Origin: Kordia jejudonensis
GTDB lineage: Bacteria > Bacteroidota > Bacteroidia > Flavobacteriales > Flavobacteriaceae
NCBI RefSeq assembly: GCF_001005315.1
Contig: NZ_LBMG01000010.1
Span: 1 to 64,000, forward strand
Reading direction: 5' to 3'
Length of the DNA stretch: 64,000 nt
Within the stretch, counting starts at the first letter, position 1. The number at the start of each line of letters is the position of its first letter. The translations under genes and the position numbers were made by a program. The notes under the pieces were generated by a model. The model did no database searches and was not told where the DNA came from. It saw nothing but the letters and a program-made list of their open reading frames with translations. This document shows positions 3 to 9,581 of the stretch, in pieces.

Positions 3-167
3 AAATATCTTTTAAAAGAATTGCAAAATGACCAAATGTTAAAAACCAAAACAATAAAAACATTGGCTAAAAAGTTGGGTTTTACAAGTAGTGAAGTATT
101 TTCAAAAACATTTAAGAAACATACAGGAGTAAATCCTTCAAATTATTTGAATCGATTAAAATCATAA
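3..167 (+). CDS. C-terminal fragment of an AraC/XylS-family regulator (5' truncated by window edge)
   Basis: The open frame entering the window encodes 54 residues ending in TAA. It reads as the second helix-turn-helix of an AraC-type DNA-binding domain: TIKTLAKKLGF, then SSEVFSKTFKKHTGVNPSNY, which matches the family pattern of recognition helix followed by F-x-K-x-G-x-P-x-Y. The rest of the gene lies outside the window, so effector domain and target are unknown. It reads toward the RiPP-like locus that starts about 375 bp downstream, but there is no direct sign that it regulates it. Confidence 0.75.
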   Translation, partial: KYLLKELQNDQMLKTKTIKTLAKKLGFTSSEVFSKTFKKHTGVNPSNYLNRLKS

Positions 168-541: not shown

Positions 542-2071
542 ATGGAAACAAGTCAAGAAAACGCGCCACAAACCGATGTATTAGAAATTAAAGTATACGT
601 TCCTATTAACGAAGTCACAAAACGACAACAAGGAATGATCAACAATGCACTTCACAAACACCCTAAAGATCGTAAATACCTATCGAACACATCACATTCT
701 AAAATTTTCGCGCCTAGCAAAAATGATGCTGATGAAATTATTGAACATGCCAAAGCAAACAATTGGGAAGTACAATTTGATAAAATAGCACGCGAAATTA
801 CTATAAAAATAAACTCTGAAGACATTGCTAACGAAGATAGTCCTGTAACGCTGGAAGCCTTAAAATTCTTGAGCGAACAAGGCGATATTCATCTTGATGC
901 AAGTGGAAAAGAAAAAGATGGTGCTAATGCGGAAGATATTTTAAATCCTTCTCAAAAAACAGGTTTTATAAAAAATAATGCAGAAAAAAGAGTTGGTAAA
1001 GGACATATGGTACCAATTCAAGAACCAGCTCATGGACATAGTGCTATTGAAATTGCAGAAGCCTATAACTTTCCTGAAGGCGATGGGGAAAAACAAACCA
1101 TTGGAATCATAGAATTAGGCGGAAAATTTGAACAAAGTGATTTAGAAACTTACTTCAAAACGTATGATTTAGATGTTCCAGAAATTCAAATCGTTGGTGA
1201 GCCAGCTACAACACCCATAAATGATAATGTAGAAGTTACGGCAGACATTCAAGTCTTAGGAGCATTAGTTCCAAAAGCAAAATTGGTTGTGTATTACGGA
1301 ACTACAATTTTAAGTGCCATGAAAGCTGCTTTGGCAGATACTAAAAACAAACTCACCGTAATTTCTATCAGTTGGGCAGGATCAGAATTAGGATACTCTC
1401 AACAGGAAATCATGGAACTAAATAATGTTTTTCATGAAGCAGCGCTAAAAGGAATTACCGTTATAGGTGCTTCAGGAGACAATGGCGCTTTTAACAACAA
1501 AGAATATGCAAATGTGAATGTTCCTGTCAACTTCGAATACGTATTAGGCTGTGGAGGAACACGACTTGAAATACTTGAAGAAAGAATCATTGCTGAAACG
1601 GTTTGGAACGAAACTACACGACAAGCACAAATAGGAACTGGCGGCGGATTCAGTCAACGAGTAGCTGCACCACAATATCAAGAAAAAGCCATAGAAGAAT
1701 ACATTGAGCGATTCCCACAATTTGAACCGTACCAAAGAGCTGGCGGAAAAGGCATTCCTGATGTTGCCGCAAATGCAGCAGATGCAACAGGCTATGCCAT
1801 TTTATTTCAAGGAAACTGGGCAAAAATTGGCGGAACAAGTTTGGCAACGCCACTTTGGGCTGCTTTAGTTGCTCGCATGAATCAAAACCTTGGCTACCGA
1901 TTAGGATTTATTAGTAAACACTTATATGCCATCATGAATTCTGATGCATTTCGTCAAATTTTAGAAGGAAACAACAACCTATATGAAGCAGCTTCAGGAT
2001 GGAATGCATGTACAGGTTTAGGATCTCCTGACGGGAAAAAACTCATGGAAGCTATTAATGCTTTGGACTAA
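542..2071 (+). CDS. S53-family (sedolisin/kumamolisin-like) serine-carboxyl peptidase
   Basis: A 509-residue peptidase with a pro-kumamolisin-like N-terminal region (about residues 12-160), then a subtilisin-fold catalytic domain. The catalytic set is visible: E231 and D235 in EVTADIQ, the oxyanion-hole Asp D313 in GASGDNG, and the nucleophile S433 in GGTSLATP. The usual SGTS motif is GGTS here. A C-terminal GLGSPDG motif fits the family's calcium-binding end. There is no signal peptide, although most sedolisins are secreted acid peptidases. It is the first gene of a same-strand set, 32 bp before the 134-aa protein, and precedes a repeat protein with regularly spaced AQAQ motifs. I infer that it processes that product; this is not shown. 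The family call is firm, the substrate is speculative. Confidence 0.88.
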   Translation: METSQENAPQTDVLEIKVYVPINEVTKRQQGMINNALHKHPKDRKYLSNTSHSKIFAPSKNDADEIIEHAKANNWEVQFDKIAREITIKINSEDIANEDSPVTLEALKFLSEQGDIHLDASGKEKDGANAEDILNPSQKTGFIKNNAEKRVGKGHMVPIQEPAHGHSAIEIAEAYNFPEGDGEKQTIGIIELGGKFEQSDLETYFKTYDLDVPEIQIVGEPATTPINDNVEVTADIQVLGALVPKAKLVVYYGTTILSAMKAALADTKNKLTVISISWAGSELGYSQQEIMELNNVFHEAALKGITVIGASGDNGAFNNKEYANVNVPVNFEYVLGCGGTRLEILEERIIAETVWNETTRQAQIGTGGGFSQRVAAPQYQEKAIEEYIERFPQFEPYQRAGGKGIPDVAANAADATGYAILFQGNWAKIGGTSLATPLWAALVARMNQNLGYRLGFISKHLYAIMNSDAFRQILEGNNNLYEAASGWNACTGLGSPDGKKLMEAINALD

Positions 2072-2103
2072 AAGCACCTATAATCACACAAAAACACAAA
2101 ATC

Positions 2104-2508
2104 ATGGCAAAAAAATTAGCATTAGATGAACTTCCTAAACGCTTAATCATAGATGGAAAAAAAATAGAAGATGTGATGATGATCTACGGATTTGTTGCAG
2201 AAGGTCCTGATGAAGACAATATCACATTTTACTTAGATACACTACTAAAAACTTCTGTAATAATCAAAGATGAAGATATCATTCATGATGTAAATATCAC
2301 AAAAACACACAGTGCTATTGGCGGAACCATCATTTGGGTTAAAAATGCGTCTAGTTATTTGCAAGGAAACACAGCACAATCGCAACAAGATCACGCGCAA
2401 CAATTCTTTCAAGGAGATATCTATCAACAATATGCAAATACTGCGCAAGGAAATACTGCTACACAACCACAAGGTTCTATCTGTGGTTGCGGTCAATGTG
2501 GAAAATAA
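2104..2508 (+). CDS. 134-aa unrecognised protein with Gln/Ala-rich linker and Cys-rich tail; possible RiPP precursor or leader carrier
   Basis: I do not recognise the family. Residues 1-85 look like a small folded alpha/beta domain (MAKKLALDELPKRL..., acidic and hydrophobic). They are followed by a low-complexity Gln/Asn/Ala linker containing NTAQSQ and NTAQGN, and a tail ending SICGCGQCGK with three cysteines beside a Ser and nearby Thr. The N-terminal domain, linker and short Ser/Thr/Cys tail resemble a leader-core layout, and the NTAQ elements recall the NAQAQ separators of the next protein. It lies between the S53 peptidase and the repeat protein, 85 bp before the latter. It could be a second modified precursor, a leader acting in trans, or an unrelated structural protein. 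Confidence 0.6.
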   Translation: MAKKLALDELPKRLIIDGKKIEDVMMIYGFVAEGPDEDNITFYLDTLLKTSVIIKDEDIIHDVNITKTHSAIGGTIIWVKNASSYLQGNTAQSQQDHAQQFFQGDIYQQYANTAQGNTATQPQGSICGCGQCGK

Positions 2509-2593
2509 ATCATCAAAGAAAACTTAATTCCTTCAATACACGAAAATCATAAGGAGTTACAAATCATATTATTAACCTTTAAATTTAATTATT

Positions 2594-4030
2594 ATGTTTA
2601 CATTTTTTCATGGATGTGGAATACCTCCTGTTACCCTTACTTGCGGTAATGGCGGTGGTGCACATGCGCAAAATGTAGGACCAACAGGGACATACGGTTG
2701 TACGCAACCCGGTCATTGTTTTGGACCTACAGGAACGCAAGGTTGTACTGTTGTTACGGTACCTCCACATTGTTTAATTGGACCTACAGGAACACAAGGT
2801 TGTACACAACCTGGTCACTGTTTAGGACCTACAGGAACGCAAGGATGCACAGTTGTTGGACCTACAGGAACGCAAGGTTGTACACAACCACAAACTATTT
2901 TACCGCCAACAATACCAGTAGGTGCCTGTATACCAAATACAGTAGGCTGCACTGCAATTACACCGTGTCGTACTAGTGGAAATGCGCAAGCACAAACTAT
3001 TTTGCCGCCAACATTACCGCCAGCGTGTGTACCACACACAATTGGTTGTACTGCAATCACGCCTTGTCCAACTATTCCTTGTCCACAAGGGGGAAACGCA
3101 CAAGCGCAAACTATTTTACCGCCAACATTACCGCCAGCGTGTGTACCACACACAATTGGTTGTACTGCAATTACGCCTTGTCCAACTATTCCTTGTCCAC
3201 AAGGAGGAAATGCACAAGCACAAATAACTTTACCTCCAACTTGGTTTGGACAATGTGGAGTACCTCCAGTAACTTTAACGTGCCCGCAAAATAATGCTGC
3301 GCAAGCACAAAATGTAGGAATTACAGGATGGAGAGGATGTATTCAACCAACTGGAACACCACCAGCAACGGTTTGTCCACAGCCAACATATCTTTTAGGA
3401 TGTACAGGATACCAAGGATGTCTTACACCAACTGGAACACCTCCTGCTACGGTTTGCCCACAACCAACTGGTACTGCACAAGCACAGACGTTAGGACCAA
3501 CAGCCTACCAAGGATGTCAACAACATGGAACTGCGGCTACACTTTGTACGCAATCGCCAATGTGTGGACCAACTCATATTGGATGCACAGGATACGAAGG
3601 TTGTCACCAACAAAGTACATTGGCTACAGTGTGCACTCAAGTAGCATGTGATGGTGGAAATGCAGAAGCACAAACACTTGGACATACTGCTTATCCAGGT
3701 TGCGGACAGCATGGAACTGAAGCTACACTTTGTACTCAAATTGGATGCGGACCAACACATCTTATAGGATGTACAGGATATGAAGGTTGTCATGATGGTG
3801 GAAATGCACAAGCACAAACACTTGGACATACTGCTTACCAAGGTTGCGGACAACATGGAACTGAAGCTACAGTATGTACTCAGATTGGATGTGGACCAAC
3901 ACACCTTTTAGGATGTACAGGGTACGAAGGATGTCACAGTGATGGAAATGCACAAGCACAAGTTCACAGTATTCCAGTAGCTGACTGTATTCCTACACGT
4001 AGTTGTACAGGAGCATGGCCAGCATGTTAA
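2594..4030 (+). CDS. 478-aa Cys/Thr-rich modular repeat protein; putative multi-core substrate of the adjacent lanthipeptide-type enzymes
   Basis: A very unusual composition: about 48 Cys by my count, very rich in Thr, Gly, Pro and Gln, with no Lys seen in a Lys-rich genome. It divides into ten blocks separated by nine variants of a short motif (NAQAQ, NAEAQ, AAQAQ, TAQAQ, AHAQ). Blocks include collagen-like GPTGTQGCT units, two consecutive near-identical 38-residue blocks, two consecutive 48-residue blocks (TLGHTAY...), and an N-terminal GCGIPPVTLTC echoed internally as QCGVPPVTLTC. There is no leader, signal peptide or KGG motif; the repeats begin at the N-terminus. Upstream of kinase, HopA1 and LanC genes, the Thr-x(n)-Cys pattern fits methyllanthionine formation, which I infer. 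Alternatively it is a disulfide-rich structural or surface protein. Confidence 0.72.
   Translation: MFTFFHGCGIPPVTLTCGNGGGAHAQNVGPTGTYGCTQPGHCFGPTGTQGCTVVTVPPHCLIGPTGTQGCTQPGHCLGPTGTQGCTVVGPTGTQGCTQPQTILPPTIPVGACIPNTVGCTAITPCRTSGNAQAQTILPPTLPPACVPHTIGCTAITPCPTIPCPQGGNAQAQTILPPTLPPACVPHTIGCTAITPCPTIPCPQGGNAQAQITLPPTWFGQCGVPPVTLTCPQNNAAQAQNVGITGWRGCIQPTGTPPATVCPQPTYLLGCTGYQGCLTPTGTPPATVCPQPTGTAQAQTLGPTAYQGCQQHGTAATLCTQSPMCGPTHIGCTGYEGCHQQSTLATVCTQVACDGGNAEAQTLGHTAYPGCGQHGTEATLCTQIGCGPTHLIGCTGYEGCHDGGNAQAQTLGHTAYQGCGQHGTEATVCTQIGCGPTHLLGCTGYEGCHSDGNAQAQVHSIPVADCIPTRSCTGAWPAC
2678..2884 (+). repeat. In-frame collagen-like GPTGTQGCT repeat array
   Basis: Five copies of the coding unit for GPTGT(Q/Y)GCT occur within about 207 bp, spaced by TQPGHC or TVV segments. 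The units vary at the third codon position, so the repeats are kept at protein level. Confidence 0.85.
2996..3223 (+). repeat. Tandem duplication of a 114-bp coding block (38 aa) ending in GGNAQAQ
   Basis: Positions 2996-3109 and 3110-3223 encode the same 38-residue block, starting TILPPTLPPAC and ending CPQGGNAQAQ. The DNA differs at only a few sites, which points to a recent block duplication. Each block holds four Cys and several Thr. Confidence 0.9.
3674..3961 (+). repeat. Tandem duplication of a 144-bp coding block (48 aa) starting TLGHTAY
   Basis: Positions 3674-3817 and 3818-3961 encode 48-residue blocks that differ at a handful of residues (Pro/Gln, Leu/Val, Ile/Leu, Asp-Gly/Ser-Asp). 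Both end in GNAQAQ. A more divergent relative lies directly upstream (TLGPTAY...NAEAQ). Confidence 0.9.
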
Positions 4031-4069
4031 TCATAGCTTATCTTAATTAGATAAAGCTATTTTGTATAT

Positions 4070-4098
4070 AAAGCTGCCTGTAAATTGCAGGCAGCTTT
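4070..4098 (+). terminator. Strong hairpin between substrate gene and modification genes (possible attenuator or mRNA-stabilising stem)
   Basis: AAAGCTGCCTG (4070-4080) pairs perfectly with CAGGCAGCTTT (4088-4098) around a 7-nt loop. Only TTT, then an A-run, follows on the + strand, so it is not a textbook intrinsic terminator. Its place between the abundant-substrate gene and the enzyme genes suggests partial termination or 3'-end protection that sets stoichiometry. The hairpin also argues against the TTG at 4062 as the kinase start. Confidence 0.6.
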
Positions 4099-4124
4099 CA
4101 AAAAAAATCAAAAAAATTACATTT

Positions 4125-5204
4125 ATGCGCTTAACAAAGAAAAACATCACTCATTACCTACTAGACAAAGGTTTTCTTGAACCTTCTTCTTTCATGTCAG
4201 GAGATTATATGCTAACACAAACACAAAGCAGAAATTCTATATTCAAAATTCAACAAGAACAAGAAAAAGGATTATTTGTTAAGCAACTTATAGCACAAGA
4301 TGCTACCAATAGTTACTTAATGCAGAAAGATGCAACAAGTCACTATTTAATTCATCAATCAGAATTATACAAAGAAACAGCGAAACACATTCCAGATTAT
4401 TATGGATATGATCCGTATCACAACATCTTAGTTACCGAGTATTTTACCAATACCCAAAATATTCATGAAGTAACGTATAGAGATAAACAATTATCGAAAC
4501 CACATGCAGTTAAAATGGCGCATATTTTAGCTTCTTTTCATTTTGATATTTTAAAAGAAATTAAAGACAACAGTTCTTTACAATTTTTTAGCAAACAATT
4601 GCCTTGGATATTAAACACAGGACAACTACTAAATTCAAGCTCTAATGGTATTACAAATACGGTCATAGCCGAAATTCACAAACACCAAGACTTAGTTAAA
4701 AAAATAGAAAAAGTAGCAAATCAGTGGGAAACTACAAGCTTAATTCACGGCGATATCAAATGGATGAATTTTATTGTAATGCCAAACAATGAAGATGTTA
4801 AATTGGTAGACTGGGAGATTGCCGATTTGGGCGATCCTTTATGGGATGTTGCAGGCGTTTTTCAATCGTACTTTAGCGCGTGGGTTTTAAGCTTCAACAA
4901 TCAAAACATACAACATCATCAACAAATGCAAGGAAGCGAATTTCTTACTATAGATGCCATTACGCCAGTTGTAAAACTACTCTGGAACACCTATGCTGAA
5001 CAACAAAAATTTACACCTTCAGTATCCAAAGAAAAGCTACTAAAAACACTTTCTTACATGACAGTTCGTATGATTCAAACGGCTTTCGAAAACAATGTAG
5101 CACAACAACAATTGAACCCAAACTCTGTACGAATCTTACAATTTTGCAATCACGTACTAGAAAATCCAGAAGAAATTGCTAAACAGTGGAACTTAATAGA
5201 CTAA
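4125..5204 (+). CDS. Aminoglycoside phosphotransferase/choline-kinase-fold kinase (LanK-like component of a split lanthipeptide synthetase)
   Basis: A 359-residue APH-fold kinase. The catalytic loop H208-G209-D210 with N215 (HGDIKWMN) and the metal-binding D229 in VDWE are intact, followed by the family's DLGDPLWD segment. ATG 4125 is preferred over an in-frame TTG at 4062 that would place the start inside a hairpin. It is 4 bp upstream of the HopA1 gene and collinear with LanC. In class V lanthipeptide systems an APH-like kinase phosphorylates Ser/Thr of the precursor before HopA1-type elimination. By context this is the likely role, with the Thr-rich repeat protein as substrate. Antibiotic inactivation is an alternative but less likely here. 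Confidence 0.85.
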   Translation: MRLTKKNITHYLLDKGFLEPSSFMSGDYMLTQTQSRNSIFKIQQEQEKGLFVKQLIAQDATNSYLMQKDATSHYLIHQSELYKETAKHIPDYYGYDPYHNILVTEYFTNTQNIHEVTYRDKQLSKPHAVKMAHILASFHFDILKEIKDNSSLQFFSKQLPWILNTGQLLNSSSNGITNTVIAEIHKHQDLVKKIEKVANQWETTSLIHGDIKWMNFIVMPNNEDVKLVDWEIADLGDPLWDVAGVFQSYFSAWVLSFNNQNIQHHQQMQGSEFLTIDAITPVVKLLWNTYAEQQKFTPSVSKEKLLKTLSYMTVRMIQTAFENNVAQQQLNPNSVRILQFCNHVLENPEEIAKQWNLID

Positions 5205-5208
5205 GAAG

Positions 5209-6264
5209 ATGAAAGACACTACACATTCAAACCAAATAAAAGAAATTACCGAAGCCATTAAAATTACTTCGTTAAGCACGTATAAAGTTCACGGAGAAGA
5301 AGAATATGTAAAAAATCAGATGCCGTATCAAACTTTTGCAGAAGATTTTAAATCATTTGGAAGTAACGCTACAGTGGATGCACAACAACAACGTATCAAC
5401 TTAGTCAACGCACTTACAAATACGATATACACCAAATTTTACTGCGGCATCAAAAATGGAGATTATACTTCTAAAATTCCACCAAAAAATGAACGAGAAG
5501 CCTTTATGGATCAACTTTCACAAGCAAACACAACTACTAACGGATTCGATTATCATTGGAATATTTACAACATTGATGCTAAAACAGGAACCGCATATGT
5601 ACAAAAAAATGGCGAATTGCGTTGGTTGCAACCAAACGGTTATCAATTTGTAAATCCGCAACAAAAACAAGCGGCTGTAAACACAAAAGTTAACATATCA
5701 CGTCAAAAAGAACACCGAAACATTCAACCTGTATTCTACCATGTATTCAGTAATGAAATGTTTCCACAAGAAGTAGAACTCGGACGAATTTATTGGAACG
5801 TAACTCCTGAAGGCGCTGCACCACTCATCAATTTACTTACTACTACACTTAATGATTATAAAATTCCGTTTCAATTTAAGTGCCTAAATCATCCTGACCT
5901 TTACGTACGTTCGGACTCCGCAGTGTTATACCTCAGCAAAAAACACGTACAATTAGTGTCCATCATTCTAAAAAATGTAATTCCAAATTTAGAACCGTAT
6001 CTTGTAGACGAAATTCCGATGTTTACCAAACAACTTCACAAAGGTGTTGGCTACGCGGAAGATCCTGGGAAAGGGCAAAGTTTTGGAATGAGCAGATCAT
6101 CAACCATAGCAGAAGCGTTAGTTGATGCGTTTCAACAAGAAAAAAGCAAAAAGGAAACACTTGACACTGTAATCAACTTTCTATCACGTAAAGGAATGAC
6201 ATTAAATCGATTACACCTTAACAAACACACAACACTAACTCCAACGTTCCCAACTTATGAATAG
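5209..6264 (+). CDS. HopA1-family (T3SS effector HopA1-like) protein, probable phospho-Ser/Thr lyase
   Basis: A 351-residue protein whose C-terminal half carries the HopA1 signature: VGYAEDPGKGQSFGMSR followed by AEALVDAF, preceded by IYWNVTPEGAAPL. In bacteria outside the type III secretion setting, this domain acts in class V lanthipeptide synthesis (LanY) and is thought to remove phosphate to give dehydroamino acids. There is no secretion system here, and the gene sits tightly between an APH-fold kinase and a LanC cyclase, so an effector role is unlikely. It overlaps the next gene by 8 bp, which suggests translational coupling. Family assignment rests on motif recognition, not alignment. 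Confidence 0.8.
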   Translation: MKDTTHSNQIKEITEAIKITSLSTYKVHGEEEYVKNQMPYQTFAEDFKSFGSNATVDAQQQRINLVNALTNTIYTKFYCGIKNGDYTSKIPPKNEREAFMDQLSQANTTTNGFDYHWNIYNIDAKTGTAYVQKNGELRWLQPNGYQFVNPQQKQAAVNTKVNISRQKEHRNIQPVFYHVFSNEMFPQEVELGRIYWNVTPEGAAPLINLLTTTLNDYKIPFQFKCLNHPDLYVRSDSAVLYLSKKHVQLVSIILKNVIPNLEPYLVDEIPMFTKQLHKGVGYAEDPGKGQSFGMSRSSTIAEALVDAFQQEKSKKETLDTVINFLSRKGMTLNRLHLNKHTTLTPTFPTYE

Positions 6265-7522
6265 TATAGAAACCACACCAAAAAAAGACGTGCAGATGTA
6301 TGTAAAAACAGCGCATAACATTGGTAAATATTTAGCAAAAGAAGCCATTTGGTATAAAGATATGTGCAATTGGACAGGACATGAAGTTTCTCCAGTAAAT
6401 GGAAAATACGAAACGGTCGTAAAAGCATGCAGTATTGAACTCTATAGCGGACTCACAGGAATTGCCTTATTTCTTGCCGAACTATATGCCAAAACACAAG
6501 ATCCTATCATTTTTCATACGTTACAAGGTGCGTTAAATACAATTTATTTCAATCTTGACAAGGATAAAGTAAACAACTTCGGATACTATTCAGGAAAAAT
6601 TGGTGTTGGATATACCTTGTGGAAAATCGGAAAAAAACTAGGAAACGATGAAATTGCAGACAAAGGACTCAACTATGTTAAATCTGTAAAAGACAAAGAC
6701 GTCGCTGACTATGAAGTAGATATCATTTCTGGCGCAGCAGGATCAATTTCTGCTTTATTAAAATTACATTATGCTGAACAAGATGAAGCATGTTTAGAAA
6801 TTGCAAAAAAATGTGGTCAATTTCTTTTAAATAAAACCATCAAAAATGGAGATACATGTGCGTGGATGACGGTTGATGCTACAAACGCTCTAACAGGATA
6901 TTCGCATGGTGCTTCTGGTATTGCCTCAGCTCTCATGGAACTATACGCTACTACAAAAAGTGAAGAATATTGGCATGCGGCAATAGGCGGATATAACTAC
7001 GAAAAAAAGTGGTTTAACCAACAAACGCAAAACTGGCCAGACTTACGTGAATACAAAGGAGACAAAGCTTTAACTTACGGAACAATGTGGTGTCATGGTG
7101 CGCCAGGAATTGCCATTGCACAACTCAAAGCATACGAAATGACGAAGCATGAATACTTCTTGCAAGAAGCAAAAATTGCGTTAGAAACAACGAAAAGAGC
7201 CGTCATACAAGAAACGAATCCGAACTCAAAATCAAACTTTTCACTATGTCATGGTTTGGCAGGAAATGCTGATATTCTACTATATGGAAATCAAATACTA
7301 AACATTCCTGAATATGTAGAAATCGCTAAAAAAGCAGGTAACTTTGGTATTTCACAATACGATGCTACAGGCGTTACATTTCCAAGTGGTGTCAATGATC
7401 CTAGCGGATTAACCATAGGACAACAAGAAAATCCTGGACTCATGTTAGGACTTTCAGGAACAGGCATGTTTTACTTACGTTTAGAAGATGCAACCAATAT
7501 TCCTTCTGCGTTGGTGCCATAA
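6257..7522 (+). CDS. LanC-type lanthionine cyclase
   Basis: A 421-residue alpha/alpha-barrel protein with the LanC motif series. It has the catalytic-type H217 in YSHGASG, the zinc ligand C279 in WCHGAPG, and C331-H332 in LCHGLAG; earlier GLTG and GAAGS helices match the barrel repeats. All three zinc ligands and the proton-shuttling His are present, so a working thioether cyclase is expected. Its ATG lies within the HopA1 gene. Known class V systems typically use an unrelated cyclase component, so kinase + HopA1 + genuine LanC is a noteworthy arrangement. The product would add Cys thiols to Dha/Dhb to give lanthionine or methyllanthionine. Confidence 0.9.
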   Translation: MNSIETTPKKDVQMYVKTAHNIGKYLAKEAIWYKDMCNWTGHEVSPVNGKYETVVKACSIELYSGLTGIALFLAELYAKTQDPIIFHTLQGALNTIYFNLDKDKVNNFGYYSGKIGVGYTLWKIGKKLGNDEIADKGLNYVKSVKDKDVADYEVDIISGAAGSISALLKLHYAEQDEACLEIAKKCGQFLLNKTIKNGDTCAWMTVDATNALTGYSHGASGIASALMELYATTKSEEYWHAAIGGYNYEKKWFNQQTQNWPDLREYKGDKALTYGTMWCHGAPGIAIAQLKAYEMTKHEYFLQEAKIALETTKRAVIQETNPNSKSNFSLCHGLAGNADILLYGNQILNIPEYVEIAKKAGNFGISQYDATGVTFPSGVNDPSGLTIGQQENPGLMLGLSGTGMFYLRLEDATNIPSALVP

Positions 7523-7550: not shown

Positions 7551-7597
7551 AAATCTCAACTTCTTTGGTATAAAGGAGTTGAGATTTACTTTTATTC
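7551..7597 (+). terminator. Rho-independent terminator after the LanC operon
   Basis: AAATCTCAACT (7551-7561) pairs with AGTTGAGATTT (7577-7587), a perfect 11-bp stem extended by CTTT/AAAG inside the loop, followed by ACTTTTATT. It lies 29 bp after the LanC stop codon. Confidence 0.85.
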
Positions 7598-8071: not shown

Positions 8072-8407
8072 ATGGATAAATCATACTATAACCCAAGAGA
8101 CTTAAAAAAATTCGGATCCATCACAGAATGGAGTGAAGAACTTGGAAATAAATTCTTTGAATACTACGGAAAAGTCTTCGAAGAAGGCGCATTAACACCG
8201 CGTGAAAAATCACTAATTGCTTTAGCTGTAGCACATACCGAACAATGTCCATACTGTATTGATGCGTATTCACAAGACGGTTTGCAACGTGGCATTACCA
8301 AAGAAGAAATGATGGAAGCCATTCACGTTGGTGCCGCCATAAAAAGTGGCGCAACCTTGGTTCACGGCGTACAAATGATGAACAAAGTAAATAAATTAGA
8401 GATGTAA
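8072..8407 (+). CDS. Arsenosugar biosynthesis-associated peroxidase-like protein (AhpD/carboxymuconolactone decarboxylase fold)
   Basis: A 111-residue all-helical protein of the AhpD-like family. The redox motif CPYC sits in HTEQCPYCIDAY and is followed by the conserved TKEEMMEAIHVGAAIKSGA helix. Within this family, a short version next to arsS is recognised as the arsenosugar-associated peroxidase-like protein, and the neighbour here is arsS. It is probably a cytoplasmic thiol peroxidase or reductant, perhaps handling arsenic thiol chemistry; its precise reaction is unknown. It is first in a same-strand cluster, 118 bp ahead of arsS. Confidence 0.85.
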   Translation: MDKSYYNPRDLKKFGSITEWSEELGNKFFEYYGKVFEEGALTPREKSLIALAVAHTEQCPYCIDAYSQDGLQRGITKEEMMEAIHVGAAIKSGATLVHGVQMMNKVNKLEM

Positions 8408-8525
8408 GTAGATTGTTAATTTTGCAGCGTAAAATTGTACAAGTCACTTATCCTGAGCGAAGTCGAAGGATATTTCTAATAGTAAATCCTATTAAAATAT
8501 AGGAACAAAAATCAAAAATTGATAC

Positions 8526-9581
8526 ATGGCGACAAAGTCCCTACAAAAAAGAGAAAGCGAACTCGCAAGCACGCAACGACAATTGGAAATTCTATCAAAT
8601 GGAATATTTCAAAGTGGCGAATTGCCAACGTTTGCAAACAAAATAAAAGAAACAAATCAATTTCCCCTAACGCCTAAAAAAGTCGAAATTCTTCAAATAA
8701 ATGTTGGCTACATGTGCAATCAAGTATGTTCACATTGTCATGTAGATGCTGGTCCAGATCGAAAAGAAATCATGACGCGCGAAACCATGCAACAATGTTT
8801 AGATGTCATTGAAAAAACGGGCGCACATACGCTCGATCTAACTGGTGGCGCGCCTGAAATGAATCCACACTTTCGTTGGTTTGTAGAAGAAGCTTCAAAA
8901 ATTGGTGTGAAAGATTTCATTGTCCGATCGAACCTCACCATCATTCGTGCAAACAAAAAATATCACGACTTACCTGAATTTTTCAAAAAACACAACGTAC
9001 ATGTCGTTTCCTCAATGCCACATTGGACACGCGGAAAAACAGACAAACAACGTGGCGACGGCGTTTTCGACAAATCAATCAAAGCCTTGCAGGAACTCAA
9101 TGCCGTTGGTTACGGAATGCCTGATAGCGACTTACGACTAGACTTAGTATACAATCCATCTGGAGCATTTTTACCTGGCGATCAAGTAGCGATGGAAAAA
9201 GATTTCAAAAAAGCATTATTTGACGATTTCGGTATTCAATTTCATAACCTATTTGCCATAACAAACTTGCCCATCAGTCGTTTCTTAGATTATCTCATTG
9301 CGTCTGAAAACTATGAAGATTACATGTATTCGTTAGTCGAAGCGTTCAATCCAAGTGCGGTTGCCAATGTAATGTGTACCAATACCATTTCCGTAAGTTG
9401 GGACGGCTGGTTATACGATTGTGATTTCAATCAAATGCTCGATCTAAAAGTGGCCAGCAAAGTAAAACACATCTCAGAATACAACGAAGAAGATTTAAGC
9501 AAACGAAACATCATCATCTCACAACATTGCTACGGTTGCACAGCTGGCGCAGGAAGTAGTTGCCAAGGAACGGTTGCGTAA
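8526..9581 (+). CDS. arsS: Arsenosugar biosynthesis radical SAM enzyme ArsS
   Basis: A 351-residue radical SAM protein with CNQVCSHCHVDAGP (CX3CX2C cluster motif), the DLTGGAPEMNP strand, and a C-terminal Cys-rich end (CYGCTAGAGSSC) typical of the DUF3641 ArsS family. ArsS transfers the adenosyl group of SAM to dimethylarsenite to give a dimethylarsinoyl deoxyadenosine, the key step toward arsenosugars. Its neighbours (peroxidase-like protein, TIGR04282 and TIGR04283 proteins, ArsM) are the recognised partners. The length is normal and the ATG start unambiguous. Confidence 0.93.
   Translation: MATKSLQKRESELASTQRQLEILSNGIFQSGELPTFANKIKETNQFPLTPKKVEILQINVGYMCNQVCSHCHVDAGPDRKEIMTRETMQQCLDVIEKTGAHTLDLTGGAPEMNPHFRWFVEEASKIGVKDFIVRSNLTIIRANKKYHDLPEFFKKHNVHVVSSMPHWTRGKTDKQRGDGVFDKSIKALQELNAVGYGMPDSDLRLDLVYNPSGAFLPGDQVAMEKDFKKALFDDFGIQFHNLFAITNLPISRFLDYLIASENYEDYMYSLVEAFNPSAVANVMCTNTISVSWDGWLYDCDFNQMLDLKVASKVKHISEYNEEDLSKRNIIISQHCYGCTAGAGSSCQGTVA

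Follow-up and report, generated by a model that had tools for sequence, protein, structure and literature searches.

A six-gene operon of the marine bacterium Kordia jejudonensis encodes an APH-fold kinase, a HopA1-family lyase and a LanC cyclase behind a 478-amino-acid (aa) protein built of Cys- and Thr-rich repeats. It spans positions 542-7522 on the forward strand of the 64,000-nucleotide stretch analysed here (the window), whose base 1 is the first base of the contig (NZ_LBMG01000010.1, C2). The operon is read as a class Vb-type lanthipeptide system with a substrate resembling a string of beads, at a probability of about 0.6. This figure refers to dehydration and cyclisation of the repeat protein, combined with one or both of two further steps: guiding of the enzymes by the small protein ORF2 (open reading frame 2), and processing of the product by a protease encoded in the same operon.

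Gene Content of the Operon

The six genes are tightly packed, with intergenic gaps of 32, 85, 94, 4 and -8 bases in gene order, the lyase and LanC genes overlapping by 8 bases. The gene set was established from open reading frames, Pfam matches and motifs. Kinase, HopA1-family and LanC genes were found where an earlier note, made from the sequence alone, had put them, namely after the 478-aa protein. That note had missed ORF2 and had not named the protease. The features of the locus are as follows.

3..164, + strand: C-terminal part of an AraC-type regulator, truncated by the start of the contig (motif search)
542..2071, + strand: sedolisin/kumamolisin-type (S53) serine-carboxyl protease, 509 aa (match to kumamolisin; E231, D235, D313, S433)
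2104..2508, + strand: ORF2, 134 aa, proposed detached leader (beta domain, FFQGDIY, Gln-rich stretch, CGCG(K/Q)CG tail)
2594..4030, + strand: repeat protein, 478 aa, proposed multi-core lanthipeptide substrate (Cys/Thr composition, linkers)
4125..5204, + strand: LanK-like APH-fold kinase, 359 aa (Pfam APH; HGDIKWMN, VDWE)
5209..6264, + strand: LanY-like HopA1-family phosphothreonine/phosphoserine lyase, 351 aa (Pfam HopA1; R193, K224, R234, Y241)
6257..7522, + strand: LanC cyclase, 421 aa (Pfam LANC_like; H217, C279, C331, H332)
7551..7587, + strand: possible operon terminator, a 17-pair hairpin followed by T-rich sequence (hairpin scan)

The Repeat Protein Shows a Thr-Cys Register

The earlier note had spoken of about 48 Cys and very many Thr; counting gave 48 Cys, 79 Thr, 6 Ser and 3 Lys/Arg in 478 aa, as well as 9 linkers of the form A(Q/H/E/G)AQ. 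Neither this protein nor its K. periserrulae orthologue matched a Pfam family. Ten orthologues, nine from Kordia and one from a different genus of Flavobacteriaceae (locus L013), ranged over 282-585 aa, 27-60 Cys, 44-102 Thr, 2-9 Ser and 1-5 Lys/Arg. The beads differ while the linkers recur, 6-10 per orthologue and 14-108 residues apart. An N-terminal segment, mostly MFTFF(H/Q)GCGIPP, is kept in 10/10 orthologues, and a C-terminal segment ending in GAWP(V/A)C in 9/10. The protein seems to grow and shrink by whole beads.

Methyllanthionine formation in the usual direction requires a Thr on the N-terminal side of the Cys. Such a spacing was established: Thr or Ser lies 2-6 residues upstream of 355/355 Cys in the ten orthologues (mean 222 and maximum 252 in 1000 residue shuffles) and Thr at -5 of 31/48 Cys in the window protein alone (7.8 expected; 0/2000 shuffles as high), although repeats within one protein are not independent and these shuffle figures therefore overstate significance. 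On the downstream side, the corresponding count was 213. Over all orthologues, Thr occupied position -5 for 241/355 Cys, or 172/253 when distinct contexts were counted.

The uncorrected ratio of nonsynonymous to synonymous differences (pN/pS) at the substrate termini was 0.10 over 45 pairs for the N-terminal 17 codons and 0.13 over 36 pairs at the other end. Within each of the ten genes, most differences between copies of a unit are silent (pS 0.27-0.65, pN 0.06-0.18), and the amino acids of the repeat protein therefore appear to be under selection.

The Modification Enzymes Correspond to Class V

The three enzymes matched their Pfam families above the curated cut-offs (kinase, APH, 2.8e-7; lyase, HopA1, 1.5e-38; cyclase, LANC_like, 7.3e-65). 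As in class V systems, a stand-alone APH-fold kinase (PF01636) adjoins a HopA1-family lyase (PF17914). The kinase carries HGDIKWMN at 208 and VDWE at 228; its start was placed at ATG 4125 rather than at the first listed TTG 4062, since most relatives begin with the same MRLTKK there. The lyase profile matched a Protein Data Bank (PDB) chain named 'Lyase' (9dk1, 7.4e-20) and HopA1 (1.1e-6). Its residues R193, K224, R234 and Y241 are invariant across 7 aligned sequences. For the class V lyase CaoY, the text available to us of PMC9486802 gives R187 and K219 as required and R229 as partly required according to mutation, and names a conserved Y236. Compared by the residues and spacings published for CaoY, not by alignment with its sequence, the window lyase possesses the same active-site set Arg/Lys/Arg/Tyr, with distances of 10 (K-R) and 17 (K-Y) in both proteins and an R-K distance of 31 vs. 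32 in CaoY. LanC has kept all of its zinc ligands (H217, C279, C331 and H332), as expected for class Vb.

The window lyase is the sole HopA1 match of its genome. The same genome holds two further full-length LanC genes (L002 on contig C160, L003 on contig C143), and a Cys-rich 84-aa ORF resembling GG-leader peptides lies near that of L002.

Enzymes and Repeat Protein Are Inherited Together

A scan of named genomes with the lyase yielded eight confirmed relatives, all of them Kordia, with 70-91% identity. Lyase, protease and repeat protein each matched the same 10/11 Kordia genomes, and the eleventh (G774) lacked all three; co-inheritance, including that of repeat protein and lyase, for which the earlier note had proposed a check, was thereby established. 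At the matching site of G774, found via the downstream peroxidase gene described below, the downstream neighbours are kept, a sortilin-like 856-aa gene lies upstream, and none of seven cluster signature words occurred within 12 kb. Nine Kordia loci were compared, i.e., the window and L020-L027 from nine of the ten positive genomes (G775 was left out; L011 and L012 duplicate L024 and L021, respectively). The order protease, ORF2, repeat protein, kinase, lyase, LanC was the same in 9/9, which bears out, for Bacteroidota, the earlier picture of a very large Cys/Thr repeat protein accompanied by a split synthetase. This shared order, the low pN/pS at the substrate termini and the register of 355/355 Cys indicate that the locus is not a product of chance.

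Beyond the genus, matches were scarce. In the family, HopA1 matches came from 5/397 genomes, belonging to three Kordia, to G079 and, weakly, to one more genome, and in the phylum from 1/395, the window genome only; the window lyase matched 2/366 genomes of the order, one of them weakly and partially. The repeat protein matched 5/397 genomes of the family, four of these matches being credible (G079 and three Kordia) and the fifth running across three stops, and ORF2 matched 4/397, i.e., three Kordia and one stress protein. No credible match to the repeat protein without the enzymes was obtained in the Kordia and family searches. In G079 (locus L013), the gene order is the same for protease, repeat protein (308 aa there) and LanC; kinase and lyase genes also occur, though broken by N runs or a stop. 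Several matches were set aside: G105 to HopA1 (2e-4; neighbouring genes unrelated by eye), G935 to the lyase (7.8e-5; residues 62-127 only), G190 to the substrate (5.4e-5; interrupted by three stops) and G388 to ORF2 (4.4e-4; within a universal stress protein, Usp 4.6e-14). Of 23 candidate stretches from viral contigs scanned with the lyase alignment, 0 were confirmed.

In a plasmid survey, 13 of 72,556 records matched the lyase, and seven neighbourhoods were read. Kinase, lyase and LanC are separate in the Aliiroseovarius plasmid, and a kinase accompanies a fused lyase-LanC in those of Deinococcus, Rhizobium and Pseudonocardia. Plasmids of two cyanobacteria and of Runella carry kinase and lyase, with no LanC within the flanks read; the Nostoc kinase, annotated 'hypothetical', was recognised as a kinase here. 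On the Runella rosea plasmid (L015), kinase and HopA1-type gene stand beside protein-glutaminase-family and sensor/regulator genes. The HopA1 gene is apparently spread over two frames, and the annotated neighbours include no LanC. Neither ORF2 nor the repeat protein matched any plasmid record.

ORF2 Carries a Motif Shared with Precursor-Like Proteins

ORF2 was found in the nine Kordia loci. The eight copies aligned have FFQGDIY and the CGCG(K/Q)CG tail in common; the ninth (L025), read separately, has FFQGDIYQQF and ends in CGCGKCR. The beta domain alone was modelled by AlphaFold2 with five strands and a mean predicted local distance difference test score (pLDDT) of 86, its best PDB match being a weak one to an SH3 barrel (E 0.3), and the full-length model was poor (pLDDT 49).

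The motif F[FL]QG[DAT][IM] was established in 3/2040 stop-to-stop stretches of at least 40 aa from nine loci and the window: ORF2 of the window, P0007 of Deinococcus and P0004 of Pseudonocardia. The looser form F[FL]QG was present in 10/2040. As the motif was defined after it had been noticed, in few clusters, these counts are a lead with a control and not a test. In the Deinococcus ORF, 189 aa long and directly before the kinase, a beta domain is followed by FLQGTM and by a C-terminal part containing several Cys and Ser. This ORF aligned with ORF2 over beta domain and motif (blastp 7e-4; hhalign E 1.3e-4, with a probability of only 53.5). The precursor-like ORF of Pseudonocardia has FFQGAM. 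Thus, ORF2 seems to be a detached leader, as if a precursor had been split and its cores moved to the repeat protein. The earlier note had called the substrate leaderless. This holds in that an ordinary leader is missing, but ORF2 looks like a separate leader, and the substrate has a conserved N-terminal segment of its own.

The Deinococcus ORF (L016:5138-5704) is missing from the incomplete PLSDB gene table and lies upstream of the kinase, the fused HopA1-LanC gene and an S8 protease gene. It had no Pfam family match and, as a query against the plasmids, found only itself.

The Protease Resembles Kumamolisin

The 509-aa protease matched kumamolisin with 1.3e-69. Its residues E231, D235, D313 and S433 sit within stretches aligned to kumamolisin and supply Glu, Asp, Asp and Ser, which we take to be the catalytic set of that enzyme. 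The gene is kept in 9/9 Kordia loci and in L013. Nothing joining a sedolisin with a lanthipeptide was found in the open-licence literature, which does not establish absence from print.

Proposed Mechanism

The enzymes probably modify the repeat protein. ORF2, with FFQGDIY and its small beta domain, would bind the complex of kinase, lyase and cyclase and recruit the repeat protein in trans; the chances that it guides the enzymes in this way appear evenly balanced. Many Thr would then be phosphorylated by the kinase, and the HopA1-type lyase would eliminate the phosphates to yield dehydrobutyrines, as the chemistry of the families and the kept residues suggest. LanC would join each Cys to a dehydrobutyrine on its N-terminal side, mostly five residues away (T-x4-C). 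Each molecule may receive up to some 27-60 methyllanthionine rings; the spacing of Thr and Cys is the basis from which ring formation is inferred. In the least certain step, the protease would act on the product, the simplest sites being the A(Q/H/E/G)AQ linkers, and release a set of ring peptides. That it cuts at the linkers is about an even bet.

More tentatively, and with the odds somewhat against it, leader and core may have been separated into two genes, so that the small beta-domain protein guides class Vb-type enzymes in trans along a bead-string of several hundred residues. The outcome could be a library of methyllanthionine peptides made from a single chain or a protein polymer holding dozens of thioether crosslinks, possibly joined to its guide via the CGCGKCG tail.

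Alternative Explanations

With the same chemistry, the product could be used whole: thioether crosslinks would turn a long protein with hardly any charge into a surface or matrix polymer, and the protease would only trim an end or remove ORF2. Few residues of the repeat protein are charged, and a length that varies between 282 and 585 aa while the C-terminal (9/10) and N-terminal (10/10) ends are kept fits a polymer with functional ends. The retention of the protease gene in every Kordia locus and in L013 argues against this use, as do linkers that recur though the beads differ, and we regard it as rather unlikely. A similarly low likelihood is given to the proposal that MFTFF(H/Q)GCGIPP is a mini-leader of the repeat protein itself, with ORF2 in another role, for instance acting as a chaperone, supplying metal or anchoring the product via its Cys tail. 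Here, the strong constraint on the N-terminal 17 codons (pN/pS 0.10 over 45 pairs) and the likeness of FF(H/Q)G to the leader motif have to be set against similar segments that recur internally as ordinary beads, e.g., TWF..CG(I/V)PPVTLTC, because of which the N-terminal segment may be a mere bead. Both proposals overlap with the class Vb-type reading in chemistry.

Two further explanations would take the repeat protein out of the pathway, and both appear improbable. If ORF2, with a leader domain and CGCG(K/Q)CG as core, were the real precursor and the repeat protein an unmodified partner, its resemblance to the leader-bearing, precursor-like Deinococcus ORF that ends in a Cys-containing stretch would be accounted for. 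However, T113 (window numbering), the invariant Thr/Ser closest to the tail of ORF2, lies 14 residues before the first of the three Cys there, so that rings of the usual size are not expected in ORF2; moreover, the Thr-Cys register is a feature of the repeat protein. Alternatively, the repeat protein could be disulfide-bonded or metal-binding, as Cys-rich repeat proteins commonly are, while the enzymes act on another peptide. This idea agrees poorly with the co-occurrence in 10/11 Kordia genomes, the joint absence in the eleventh and the common operon, and with a Thr or Ser upstream of every one of the 355 Cys although Ser is scarce.

Several observations weigh against the class Vb-type reading itself. 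The FF(H/Q)G start of the substrate could be the recognition site instead of ORF2. With the NCBIfam LxmK model, the kinase reached 67.3 bits (E 1.2e-18) vs. a cut-off of 315, this model being an equivalog named after the kinase of lexapeptide (class Va) and no defining feature of class Vb. In L013, ORF2 was not found between protease and substrate, nor its motif elsewhere in that stretch (the assembly is 81% complete), no precursor with an F[FL]QG-type motif was found in the Aliiroseovarius and two cyanobacterial clusters, and Rhizobium offers a partial likeness only (FVGEY). The post hoc definition of the motif and the non-independence of the repeats, given above with the respective counts, belong here as well. 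L023 has the weakest silent excess between repeat units (pS 0.27, pN 0.17), and the substrate frame of K. aestuariivivens (L022) ends before the conserved C-terminus. No export signal was seen by eye in protease or substrate, and no transporter is among the six operon genes, which makes the place of cleavage uncertain.

Beyond the early stop in L022, bead-like sequence continues in the same frame (L022:8600-8930).

Comparison with Known Lanthipeptide Systems

According to the part of PMC12291118 available, class V uses stand-alone LanK and LanY, and class Vb adds LanC. The earlier view that class V does not normally have a plain LanC as its cyclase is therefore not supported for class Vb; kinase, HopA1 and LanC sets, in part fused, also occur in the plasmids described above. 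As far as it is described there, class Vb (LanK, LanY and LanC; mSmoA) likewise has a separate APH-fold kinase, HopA1-family lyase and LanC, but acts on short leader-core precursors, whereas the Kordia system belongs to Bacteroidota, has a substrate of 282-585 aa and carries the leader motif in another protein. The operon is called a class Vb-like variant because its substrate departs from the short precursor that unites an N-terminal leader and a C-terminal core in a single chain, and the leader-like motif resides in ORF2. In the accessible portions of the papers, class V is said to have been found only in actinobacteria so far (PMC12328550), and cyanobacterial precursor candidates are also listed (PMC9486802). 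Class Va (cacaoidin, lexapeptide) shares the kinase and the HopA1-type lyase with the CaoY residues R/K/R/Y; in contrast to class Va, the six Kordia genes include neither a second, kinase-like LanX nor a cysteine decarboxylase LanD, but do include LanC.

Microviridin-type and fungal KEX2-processed precursors carry a leader or signal on the same chain. As in the proposed Kordia substrate, several cores per polypeptide are reported in the parts seen of the literature on multi-core precursors of the microviridin type, which are ribosomally synthesised and post-translationally modified peptides (PMC5934393), and on fungal KEX2-processed repeat proteins (PMC9769878, PMC7329392), with different chemistry in both cases.

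A similar arrangement was seen on an Aliiroseovarius crassostreae plasmid (L019), where kinase, HopA1 and LanC directly follow an 80-aa Cys/Thr repeat ORF, as in Kordia. The substrate is much shorter than in Kordia, and neither an ORF2-like motif nor, among the annotated neighbours, a sedolisin was found. This ORF (L019:4623-4865), without a Pfam family match, contains three CVSVxFTAGC-like repeats, the third diverged, and no evident leader. Five Aliiroseovarius crassostreae plasmid records matched the lyase, one of which was read.

For Kordia, one paper, as far as its text was available, gives a lanthipeptide cluster of K. antarctica from antiSMASH, and the accessible part of another lists a proteusin-like cluster. 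No description of the substrate architecture or of the detached leader was found in the open-licence literature, including the available parts of PMC12141560 and PMC9415263, although this does not establish absence from print. Thus, a class Vb-like enzyme set is known, while the substrate architecture and the detached leader are apparently undescribed in these sources.

Genomic Surroundings

An AraC-type gene lies just upstream of the operon in 9/9 Kordia loci by motif search; the window copy is cut, and those of the other eight are longer. The copy of K. algicida, the only one run on Pfam, matched HTH_18 (9e-17) and HTH_AraC (4.2e-8). The same motif search gave no match in L013. The hairpin downstream of LanC has the longest stem among 6 sites in the region, a number at chance level (5.3 expected in shuffles).

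On the 3' side of the operon (window 8072-9581), an arsenosugar biosynthesis-associated peroxidase-like gene (NCBIfam 3.6e-57) is followed by a Radical_SAM/DUF3641 gene. Besides the window, L020-L022 and L025-L027 have this pair downstream of the operon. L023 and L024 contain the same cassette, including the AraC-type gene, with downstream genes that differ from those of the remaining Kordia loci; therefore, the cassette seems to have changed place within the genus.

Implications

Lanthipeptide enzymes are usually thought to act on short peptides tethered to a leader. If the proposed reading is true, Kordia offers a natural case in which leader and core are already uncoupled and each substrate chain holds 27-60 cysteines. 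With four or five genes from cultured Kordia, direct tests of leader recognition, of processivity and of protein materials crosslinked by thioethers would then become feasible. The range of the class Vb enzyme set would widen to Bacteroidota, and a repeat Cys/Thr ORF beside LanK, LanY and LanC may serve as a search pattern for more systems, such as that of Aliiroseovarius.

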